A stretch of DNA of 35,919 nucleotides. Source: Candidatus Omnitrophota bacterium. Lineage in GTDB: Bacteria; Omnitrophota; Gorgyraeia; Gygaellales; Profunditerraquicolaceae. The notes beneath the pieces were generated by a model, which was given only the letters and a program-made list of their open reading frames with translations, was not told where the DNA came from and did not search any database. The DNA lies in assembly GCA_028712255.1 (NCBI GenBank), contig JAQTQJ010000004.1, positions 83,956-119,874 of the forward strand, read 5' to 3'. The position numbers and the translations under genes were made by a program. This document shows, one piece after another, positions 1 through 3,877 of this stretch; positions within the stretch are counted from its first letter, which is position 1, and the number at the start of each line of letters is the position of its first letter.

Positions 1-1788
1 AATCATAGAATCCGGATCTACGATATTACCTTTGGATTTTGACATAACCTCGCCGTCCTTTAAAACCATGCCTTGAGTGAGCAACTTATCAAAAGGTTCA
101 GCAAAATCTATCATCTTTAAATCTTGAAAAAATTTAGTAAAGAAGCGCGAATACAATAAATGCAGGATTGCATGTTCAATACCACCAATATATTGATCAA
201 CGCTCATCCAATATTTGGCTTCCTGCTCGTCAAACGGGCCATCCTTGAACTTAGGCGAGCAGAATCTTAAGAAATACCAAGAGGAATCAAAGAAGGTAGC
301 CATAGTGTCGGTTTCCCTCCTGGCTTTACCTTTGCATTTAGGGCATTTTACCTCTACAAACTTTTTCACCTTACTTAAAGGACTTCCCCCTTCTCCGGTA
401 AAAGGCGCGCTAGTAGGTAATTCTACAGGCAAATCTCTATAAGGAACAGAGACAATGCCACAAGCAGGACAATAAATCATCGGTATCGGAGTTCCCCAAT
501 AACGCTGCCGGGAAATCAACCAATCGCGTAAACGAAAGTGTGTCTGAATCTTACCGATACCTTTAGACTCCATCCATTGCGCAATTTTTATTTTTGCGTC
601 CTGGTTATTCAATCCATTAAATTCTGCAGAATTTATCTGTACACCATCGCCTTCATATGCTTGGGTTAACTTATCCACAGAATCTATTGATTTATCTTCG
701 GGACTAATTACCAGGCGCATCGGAAGTTTATGCTCCTTTGCAAAAAGAAAATCACGCTGGTCGTGCGTAGGCACAGCCATAATTGCACCTGTGCCATATT
801 CCATTAAGACATAATCGGCAATCCAAATGGGAACCAATTCATTATTTACCGGATTAACGGCAAAACTCCCGGTAAATACCCCTTCCTTCTTAACATCAGA
901 AGCAGCGCGTATTACCTTACTTTCAGTGGCAACCTTCTTAATAAACTCTAAAGCATCATTTTCCTGAGGCTTGCCTTTAATTAATTCTAAGACTAAAGGA
1001 TGTTCCGGAGCCAACACTATATAAGTTGCCCCGAAAATTGTATCCACCCGGGTAGTAAACACTGAAATCAGCTTATCGCTGTTTTCCAGGCGAAAATAAA
1101 TATCCACCCCGCTACTCTTTCCAATCCAGTTATTCTGCATCGCCAAAACTCTAGGTGGCCAATTTTTAAGCTGGTCCAAATCTTCCAGCAATCTCTCTTT
1201 ATATTCAGTAATTTTTAAATACCATTGCTCTAAATCCTTCTGCTGGACTTTTGTATGACAACGCCAACATCCCCCTTCGATTACTTCTTCATTAGCCAGA
1301 GTTGTTTGGCAGCTTGGGCACCAGTTAACTTGTGAAGCCTTCTTATAGGCCAGGCCGCGTTCAAACATTTTTAAGAAGACCCACTGGTTCCATTTATAAT
1401 AATCACTTTCACATGTAGCAATTTCCCGTTCCCAGTCATAAGAAAAGCCCATTTTCTTTAACTCTGTTTCCATCTCTTTAATACATTTATGTGTCCAACT
1501 GTTAGGACGGGTCTTATTCTTTATCGCCGCATTTTCCGCAGGTTGTCCAAAGGCATCAAAACCCATAGGATGCATCACATTATAACCTTCTAGGGTTTTA
1601 AAACGGCTGGCTACATCGCCAATAGTGTAATTACGCACATGGCCCATGTGGATTTTTCCGCTTGGGTAAGGAAACATTTCCAGTAAATAATATTTTTTGC
1701 GCTTAGGATCAGTTTGCGCGCGGAAGGCATGAGTCTTCTGCCAAATCTTTTGCCATTTTTCTTCAATCTTTTTAAAATCGTAATGCAT
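1..1788 (-). CDS. leuS: Leucyl-tRNA synthetase, N-terminal ~596 residues (3' end outside window)
   Basis: Class I aminoacyl-tRNA synthetase that charges tRNA-Leu in the cytoplasm. The frame is open from an ATG at 1786-1788 to the window edge, so the C-terminal part is missing. Translation gives the HIGH-type motif HMGH near residue 48 ([15 protein letters not shown]), the bacterial LeuS signature [11 protein letters not shown], two zinc-ribbon-like Cys pairs (CPSC and CWRC), editing-domain sequence ([13 protein letters not shown]), DSSWYFLRF, and the KMSKS loop as MSKSKGN just before the edge. The canonical DAFGLPAENAA carries Q here in place of L. The start lies 5 nt after the nfo stop codon, so the two genes are co-transcribed from the nfo promoter. 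Identity is secure; full length cannot be judged. Confidence 0.97.
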
Positions 1789-3001: not shown

Positions 3002-3030
3002 TTGACCTTTGCTATTTTAGAATATAAAAT
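3002..3030 (+). promoter_or_regulatory. Promoter of tRNA-Leu
   Basis: Plus strand: TTGACC (3002-3007), 17-nt spacer, TAAAAT (3025-3030). The predicted start near 3037 lies about 19 nt before the tRNA 5' end. It interlocks with the tRNA-Ala promoter, with each -10 box inside the other's spacer. Confidence 0.8.
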
Positions 3031-3042: not shown

Positions 3043-3055
3043 CCTAAAAATATAT

Positions 3056-3138
3056 GCCGGGATGGCGAAATGGCAGACGCGGCAGCCTCAAAAGCTGTTG
3101 AGGGCAACCTCATGTGGGTTCAAGTCCCTCTCCCGGTA
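3056..3138 (+). tRNA. tRNA-Leu (anticodon CAA)
   Basis: An 83-nt tRNA with the long variable arm of class II tRNAs (TGAGGGCAACCTCA). Acceptor stem GCCGGGA/TCCCGGT with a G-U first pair; D arm GCG...CGC; anticodon stem GCAGC/GCTGT around CTCAAAA, giving CAA, which reads TTG. The T stem GTGGG/CCCTC has one U-U mismatch. No CCA is encoded and there is no intron. A run of seven T follows the 3' end and leads directly into a homing-endonuclease gene. Confidence 0.95.
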
Positions 3139-3146
3139 TTTTTTTA

Positions 3147-3836
3147 ATGAAACATGACATTAATTACAAATGGAATTCAAATCTAGCGTACGCTATCGGC
3201 CTCATAGCGACTGATGGAAACCTATCCAAAGATAGAAGGCACATCCTCTTCACAACAACTGACCACCAGTTAGCAAATACATTCAAAGAGTGTCTTGGTA
3301 TCAAAAATAAAACAATGACCACGCTTCCACGTGGATTTGGCAAGAAAAACGTTTATAGAATAAATTTTGGAAATGTAAAATTTTACCAATGGCTACAAAA
3401 AATTGGGTTGATGCCTAAGAAAACGATGTTGATGGGTAAATTGGATATCCCAAATCAATATTTCATTGATTTCTTACGTGGCCATCTTGATGGTGATGGT
3501 TCTGTTTTTACTTATACCGATAGATACATGAAATATAAAGGAAAAACATATACTTATCATAGATTATATACTAAGTTTATCTCAACTAATTTTAATCAGA
3601 TTAAATGGATAAGAGACGAAATAAAAAATAGACTAGACATTGTTGGGTCATTAACCCACTATCTTAAAATAAATAGAGAATTCCCTATTTGGCAACTTCG
3701 TTTTGCTAAAAATGACTCTTTAAAACTTCTATCCTGGATCTACTACAAGCCTAACCTGCCCTGTCTAAATCGTAAAAGAAAGATTGCTGAAGAATTTCTT
3801 TTGCCTTTTAGTTATTCCTCAAAGGAAGAACGCTAA
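3147..3836 (+). CDS. LAGLIDADG-family homing endonuclease, free-standing
   Basis: A 229-residue protein with two LAGLIDADG-type helices: LAYAIGLIATDGN (residues about 13-25) and FLRGHLDGDGSVF (about 109-121). Each ends in the metal-binding Asp (D23, D117), as expected for a monomeric two-motif enzyme that cuts a long asymmetric DNA site. The frame is open from 3114, but that start lies inside the tRNA, so I chose the ATG at 3147. No Shine-Dalgarno sequence is present; only T's and two A's separate it from the tRNA-Leu 3' end. With that tRNA it is the only plus-strand unit in the window, and it looks AT-richer than its neighbours. No intron or interrupted gene surrounds it. Its natural target is unknown. 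Confidence 0.88.
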   Translation: MKHDINYKWNSNLAYAIGLIATDGNLSKDRRHILFTTTDHQLANTFKECLGIKNKTMTTLPRGFGKKNVYRINFGNVKFYQWLQKIGLMPKKTMLMGKLDIPNQYFIDFLRGHLDGDGSVFTYTDRYMKYKGKTYTYHRLYTKFISTNFNQIKWIRDEIKNRLDIVGSLTHYLKINREFPIWQLRFAKNDSLKLLSWIYYKPNLPCLNRKRKIAEEFLLPFSYSSKEER

Positions 3837-3847
3837 AGCTAATATAA

Positions 3848-3877
3848 AATAGGGGCAGGATTAATCCTGCCCCTATT
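3848..3877. terminator. Bidirectional terminator between convergent genes
   Basis: A 30-nt near-perfect palindrome: 13-bp arms 3848-3860 and 3865-3877 around TTAA, with a GGGGCAGGA core. It lies 11 nt after the endonuclease stop and 19 nt after the stop of the minus-strand gene. The minus-strand side continues into a T-rich tail (TATTTTATATT). Confidence 0.8.

Follow-up and report, generated by a model that had tools for sequence, protein, structure and literature searches.

The stretch of DNA analyzed here, 35,919 nucleotides from a Candidatus Omnitrophota bacterium and referred to below as the window, contains a homing endonuclease gene (HEG) directly downstream of an intact tRNA-Leu gene. 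The arrangement of an HEG beside a tRNA is not a single case and represents a family that crosses phyla. We consider it quite probable that the members of this family are LAGLIDADG homing endonucleases that do not depend on introns and that enter tRNA genes, in almost all cases those of tRNA-Leu, near the anticodon loop, bringing a replacement piece of the tRNA with them.

ARAGORN and Rfam agree on a tRNA-Leu(CAA) gene with boundaries at 3055/3056 and 3138/3139 of the plus strand. The gene (3056 to 3138; RF00005, 52.2 bits) is intact and intron-free, has its anticodon at 3089 to 3091, and does not encode CCA. It is followed on the same strand by a T-rich spacer of 8 nt (TTTTTTTA, 3139 to 3146) without a Shine-Dalgarno site and then by the HEG (3147 to 3836, plus strand), which starts with an ATG at 3147, ends with a TAA stop codon at 3834 to 3836, and encodes 229 amino acids. 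The first-pass annotation had delimited the endonuclease gene at 3056 and 3836; the end agrees with the HEG stop, whereas 3056 is the start of the tRNA. The energy of the anti-Shine-Dalgarno duplex at the HEG start is −1.3 kcal/mol, compared with a median of −5.3 kcal/mol across the window's 25 other gene starts; 19 of these reach −4 kcal/mol or lower. The only strong promoter-like match upstream of the HEG on the plus strand is a sigma-70-like sequence ahead of the tRNA, TTGACC-17-TAAAAT (3002 to 3030, plus strand, 10 of 12 matches), which on direct reading is identical in the HEG-free relative G020 (locus L075) and is probably the sole promoter for the tRNA-HEG unit. The initial description of an intact, intron-free tRNA followed after 8 nt by an ATG with neither a ribosome site nor a promoter of its own is borne out in all respects by ARAGORN, Rfam, the duplex energies, and the promoter scan. 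A terminator-like hairpin (ATAGGGGCAGGATTAATCCTGCCCCTAT, 3849 to 3876) lies 3′ of the HEG; its U-rich side faces a convergent gene, and it may therefore mainly serve that gene. An imperfect inverted repeat of approximately 100 nt (cccaaagtgtcattgcgagg...caatgacactttgg, 2708 to 2806), similar to a repeat element, is located upstream of a tRNA-Ala gene in the window.

The window HEG product matches LAGLIDADG_3 (PF14528; E = 3e-7, 31.0 bits against a cut-off of 22.5) and no other Pfam family, with no GIY-YIG domain, and NCBIfam holds no model for the HEG family. The protein has two LAGLIDADG motifs, GLIATDG with Asp23 and FLRGHLDGDG with Asp117, and both catalytic aspartates are invariant across 14 divergent members (alignment A1). 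The AlphaFold model has a pLDDT of 89.3, and the predicted fold has as its best Foldseek match in the PDB the archaeal endonuclease I-Tsp061I (E = 4.2e-11, TM 0.61/0.68). The dN/dS ratio is 0.17 between the window HEG and that of genome G019 and ranges from 0.11 to 0.35 in the HEG pairs where it is measurable, which indicates that the protein is under purifying selection.

Among 128 distinct bacterial members retrieved through protein similarity alone (E ≤ 1e-40), 118 have a tRNA within 150 nt, and in all 118 the HEG and the tRNA are on the same strand. The adjoining tRNA is tRNA-Leu in 112 of these; in a 119th case (L139), the tRNA is cut by the contig end. The tRNA-linked relatives are found in Omnitrophota, many Patescibacteria groups, Chloroflexota, Rokubacteria, and Myxococcota. 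Searching named genomes with a profile yielded 80 loci, again beside tRNA-Leu, in Omnitrophota, many Patescibacteria groups, Chloroflexota, Rokubacteria, Methylomirabilota, and "Deltaproteobacteria"; these loci came from an alignment-based scan, and a single-protein scan gave nothing. HEG relatives are carried by 33 of 97 near genomes, where the tRNA scan places them beside tRNAs, and the genome of the window carries another copy, located between tRNA-Cys and tRNA-Leu(TAA). None of eight viral relatives has a tRNA within 150 nt, and the relatives from viruses, phages, and plasmids have low identity (≤38%, <27%, and ≤33%, respectively) and are not tRNA linked where checked.

The HEG clades are each restricted to a single isoacceptor and a single side of the tRNA, i.e., Leu-CAA 3′, Leu-CAA 5′, Leu-GAG 5′, Leu-CAG 5′, Leu-TAA 5′, or Asp-GTC 5′, and these site labels change 11 times on the HEG tree, compared with 64.5 times in shuffles. 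Such fidelity is what a sequence-specific enzyme predicts and passive settling does not. One branch of the family, whose members carry a helix-turn-helix-like extension at the N terminus (L065, L066, L068, L069, L030, and L071), has no tRNA or known RNA nearby and was excluded from the analysis. A distant relative in G020 (L072) lies between two tRNA-Ser genes, with tRNA-Ser(CGA) starting 5 nt after it, and other long-arm tRNAs may thus be targets as well. A further LAGLIDADG match, in G016 (L073), is inside an intein-like insert of the gene for a DNA gyrase/topoisomerase subunit A.

To look for relics, the sequence on the opposite side of each HEG from its tRNA was aligned with probes of full-length tRNA-Leu. 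Relics with a score of at least 13 were found in 10 of 47 3′-side loci (HEG after the tRNA) and 19 of 65 5′-side loci (HEG before the tRNA), compared with 3 and 2 in controls; the other 37 3′-side loci are relic-free. All 10 relics of the 3′-side loci, which lie beyond the HEG, are tRNA 3′ halves, and 18 of the 19 relics of the 5′-side loci, which lie ahead of the HEG, are tRNA 5′ halves. Relative to the first nucleotide of the anticodon, the clearest 3′-side relics (L009, L109, and L100) start at −9 to −3, and most of the Leu-GAG relics on the 5′ side end at +2 to +4. This polarity, together with the boundaries, points to a break near the anticodon loop and the restoration of a complete tRNA on one side. 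The tRNA 3′ end, which had been put forward as the insertion site, is probably not the place of entry, as judged from these relics in relatives; the position of the HEG after the 3′ end would be a consequence of the rebuilding of the whole tRNA from a half that arrived with the HEG. A tandem tRNA duplication with subsequent insertion was rejected as the source of the relics because the gap of approximately 0 to 37 nt between the tRNA and the ORF holds no second half.

We propose that, in a genome whose site is still unoccupied, the enzyme cuts at the anticodon loop of the tRNA-Leu gene, or close to it, and that donor-templated repair inserts the HEG plus a replacement tRNA half, or a whole tRNA. 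A complete tRNA would be regenerated on one side, and the relic of the native half would stay on the other, which would give the order whole tRNA, HEG, 3′-half relic in the 3′-side type, including the window, and 5′-half relic, HEG, whole tRNA in the 5′-side type. The DNA cleavage, its exact position, the repair route, and the expression route in this scheme are those that the compared sequences suggest. Since the rebuilt tRNA retains the anticodon loop, self-cleavage must somehow be avoided.

The 3′-side locus L009 has a relic (TCTCAAAAACCGATGAGG) within which the HEG stop codon falls. The acceptor strand of the relic (CTTCTTCGGC) agrees with those of HEG-free family alleles, unlike that of the tRNA of the locus itself (CTTCCTCGGC). 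The anticodon arm is identical in the intact tRNA and the relic; the closest positions at which the two differ lie in the variable loop and the acceptor. In L091, L088, and L009, the 5′ acceptor strand of the tRNA also pairs with the new 3′ half, which suggests an exchange of the entire tRNA rather than of one half. A palindromic insert of approximately 65 nt (approximately 1397 to 1463, minus strand) splits the relic 3′ half of L009 after GGGTTC. No relic is detectable in the copy of the window or in that of G019, and the tRNA-rebuilding history of the window copy is therefore deduced from its relatives. Four of 33 empty Leu-CAA loci, i.e., L059 (G022), L080 (G012), L058 (G001), and L047 (G055), carry tRNA 3′-half scars without an HEG, in the form of a second tRNA 3′ end 19 to 124 nt downstream, and these scars read as past occupation followed by loss. 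The acceptor stem of the functional tRNA differs from that of the scar in L059 and L080. By reading, the relic of L009 and the scars of L059 and L080 are closer to the native allele than the functional tRNA is, in a comparison that covers these hosts.

An ordinary free-standing endonuclease gene that settled after a safe and conserved tRNA neighbor, the tRNA being neither its target nor rebuilt, would account for the window copy alone, which is a clean insertion between the tRNA and the downstream hairpin with no relic, and T4 SegB, an HEG between tRNA genes, provides a precedent (PMC2988022). This explanation is nevertheless unlikely, as it leads one to expect neither the near-perfect polarity of the relic halves, nor the fidelity of the HEG clades to one isoacceptor and side, nor the same-strand adjacency in 118 of 118 cases. 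The relic boundaries also bear on a former group I intron, in which the HEG would once have resided in the anticodon loop until recombination with an intronless copy gave a whole tRNA and the ribozyme was lost. The break points coincide with intron positions in bacterial tRNAs (group I, tRNA-Leu(UAA); PMC3984707), and LAGLIDADG enzymes are typical intron riders. However, no group I intron match was found in the window or in 14 relic-bearing loci, so that the homologs are not located in introns (the first-pass annotation had named homologs always inside introns as contrary to its reading); moreover, no intron-containing relative was seen, and the ORF is so tight to the tRNA (median gap, 7.5 nt) that no room is left for a ribozyme. 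An intron origin is thus slightly less likely still than a free-standing settler.

The same tRNA locus in the HEG-free relative G020 is collinear with the window on both sides of the HEG: the match runs as far as the end of the tRNA and starts again at the hairpin, which in G020 is directly 3′ of the tRNA. Accordingly, either the HEG was inserted within the tRNA unit or G020 lost it precisely, and the claim of a mobile-type endonuclease gene within a tRNA transcription unit holds. In the genus, 4 of the 17 genomes in which a Leu-CAA gene was found carry the HEG (G000, G019, G002, and G018, the last with a broken copy). The HEGs of other genera (G056 and G047) are 73 to 75% identical to that of the window, compared with 57% for G002 of the same genus. 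The host markers show a different pattern, with 60 to 62% identity for RlmN in G056 and G047, and 88% identity for a GspE-like protein in G002 versus 46 to 57% in G056 and G047; the identity pattern of the HEG is thus incongruent with those of RlmN and the GspE-like protein. Broken HEG copies (L013, L105, and L031) and empty sites fit the usual cycle of gain, decay, and loss. G018 has two tRNA-Leu(CAA) genes, one with the broken HEG (L013) and the other a different allele without an HEG (L074). A domesticated protein (a tRNA maturase or regulator) with a cellular role beside tRNA-Leu rather than selfish homing is the least likely alternative of all, because the purifying selection, the close tRNA linkage, the ability of LAGLIDADG proteins to serve as maturases (PMC3984707), and the example of WhiA, a domesticated LAGLIDADG protein, are set against patchy presence (33 of 97 relatives), the three broken copies, the incongruence with host markers, the catalytic aspartates invariant in 14 divergent members, and the loss scars at empty sites.

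The HEG start could be assigned for 42 Leu-CAA loci of several phyla. The gap from the tRNA to the ATG in these loci has a median of 7.5 nt (range, 0 to 37 nt) and falls in all three frames, for which reason an ORF start inside the tRNA was rejected, and a Shine-Dalgarno site at −4 or better is present in one locus. The 8-nt spacer of the window leaves no room for a separate promoter. Together with the collinearity of G020 and the presence of homologs outside introns, this fits expression via the tRNA transcript and 3′ processing, and the HEG is likely to be expressed from that transcript, as far as the sequence indicates. In the 3′-side type, joint transcription from the tRNA promoter and release by tRNA 3′ processing, which would leave an almost leaderless HEG mRNA, would be the simplest route for a gene inside the tRNA unit with neither a promoter nor a Shine-Dalgarno site. 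Such release resembles tRNA punctuation in mitochondria. Against this, the T-run after the tRNA could itself lower read-through.

The 5′-side loci have features of their own. In 8 of 27 Leu-GAG loci (L137, L150, L136, L152, L161, L153, L138, and L160), the relic D-loop sequence TTGGTA is located upstream of the HEG 18 to 20 nt before a TATAAT-like box (18 nt in seven of the eight), a spacing by which the relic half-tRNA may have become an HEG promoter, possibly a self-regulated one. The HEG frame extends 15 to 37 nt into the downstream tRNA in L133, L130, L122, L145, L158, and L154 (Leu-GAG), L012 (Leu-TAG), and L026 and L029 (Asp-GTC), and in L133 the TGA of the anticodon loop (GAG) serves as the HEG stop codon. 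Processing of the tRNA 5′ end would sever such a message ahead of its stop codon.

Integrative elements with tRNA attachment sites likewise bring along one end of the tRNA, which is restored in this way. They rely on integrases and typically on the 3′ end of the tRNA, whereas here there is no integrase, only an endonuclease gene, and the break appears to be near the anticodon loop. The mORFs of fungal mitochondria (atp6 of Allomyces macrogynus; atp6, atp9, cox2, and nad3 of Glomus) carry a duplicated gene end and are similar in that an intronless LAGLIDADG (or GIY-YIG) gene brings a foreign end that rebuilds the host gene, while the native end remains as a relic past the ORF (PMC3630166). A corresponding native-end relic is present in 10 3′-side and 18 5′-side relatives and absent from the window copy. 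The hosts of mORFs are mitochondrial protein genes, in contrast to the bacterial chromosomal tRNA genes described here, and only the tRNA family has mirror-image 5′-side forms, several isoacceptor-specific clades, and a distribution over many phyla. T4 SegB and other free-standing phage endonucleases are likewise intronless HEGs among tRNA genes whose homing drives the inheritance of the region (PMC2988022), and the window HEG shares its intergenic, intron-free position with the Seg type; however, SegB is a GIY-YIG enzyme, is phage encoded, and has its own predicted promoter, and the free-standing enzymes of T4 cleave at a distance without leaving a rebuilt half of a gene (PMC2988022). Group I introns with endonuclease genes in the anticodon regions of tRNAs also target the anticodon arm, including that of tRNA-Leu (PMC3984707), but in the present family there is no intron, and the tRNA is continuous and would be restored at the DNA level, not through splicing. 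HNH endonuclease genes in horizontally transferred tRNA arrays of mycobacteria are also HEGs between bacterial tRNA genes; they differ in nuclease family and in their setting in large phage-like arrays, and the portion of the report consulted describes no relic halves (PMC6582537). A paper on rRNA insertions in the CPR with LAGLIDADG enzymes does not mention tRNA. No report of a tRNA-Leu-linked HEG family was found in the open-licence papers examined, and its novelty is provisional; neither the mORFs nor T4 SegB covers tRNA rebuilding in bacteria.

On balance, we lean toward the broader view that a large class of selfish elements across many bacterial phyla homes into tRNA-Leu genes at the anticodon loop and carries the rebuilding half, so that it moves tRNA alleles between species, and that its 3′-side form relies on tRNA transcription and processing for its promoter and the 5′ end of its mRNA. 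This would be a third way for a homing endonuclease to occupy an essential gene, in which the host gene is rebuilt at the DNA level, as opposed to splicing (introns and inteins) or the use of spacers only (T4 Seg/Mob). If this is true, it explains foreign-looking tRNA-Leu alleles and half-tRNA scars, provides natural enzymes with predicted specificity for the anticodon arm, and opens expression through tRNA processing in bacteria to testing, and the mitochondrial mORF precedent would become one case of a wider strategy.
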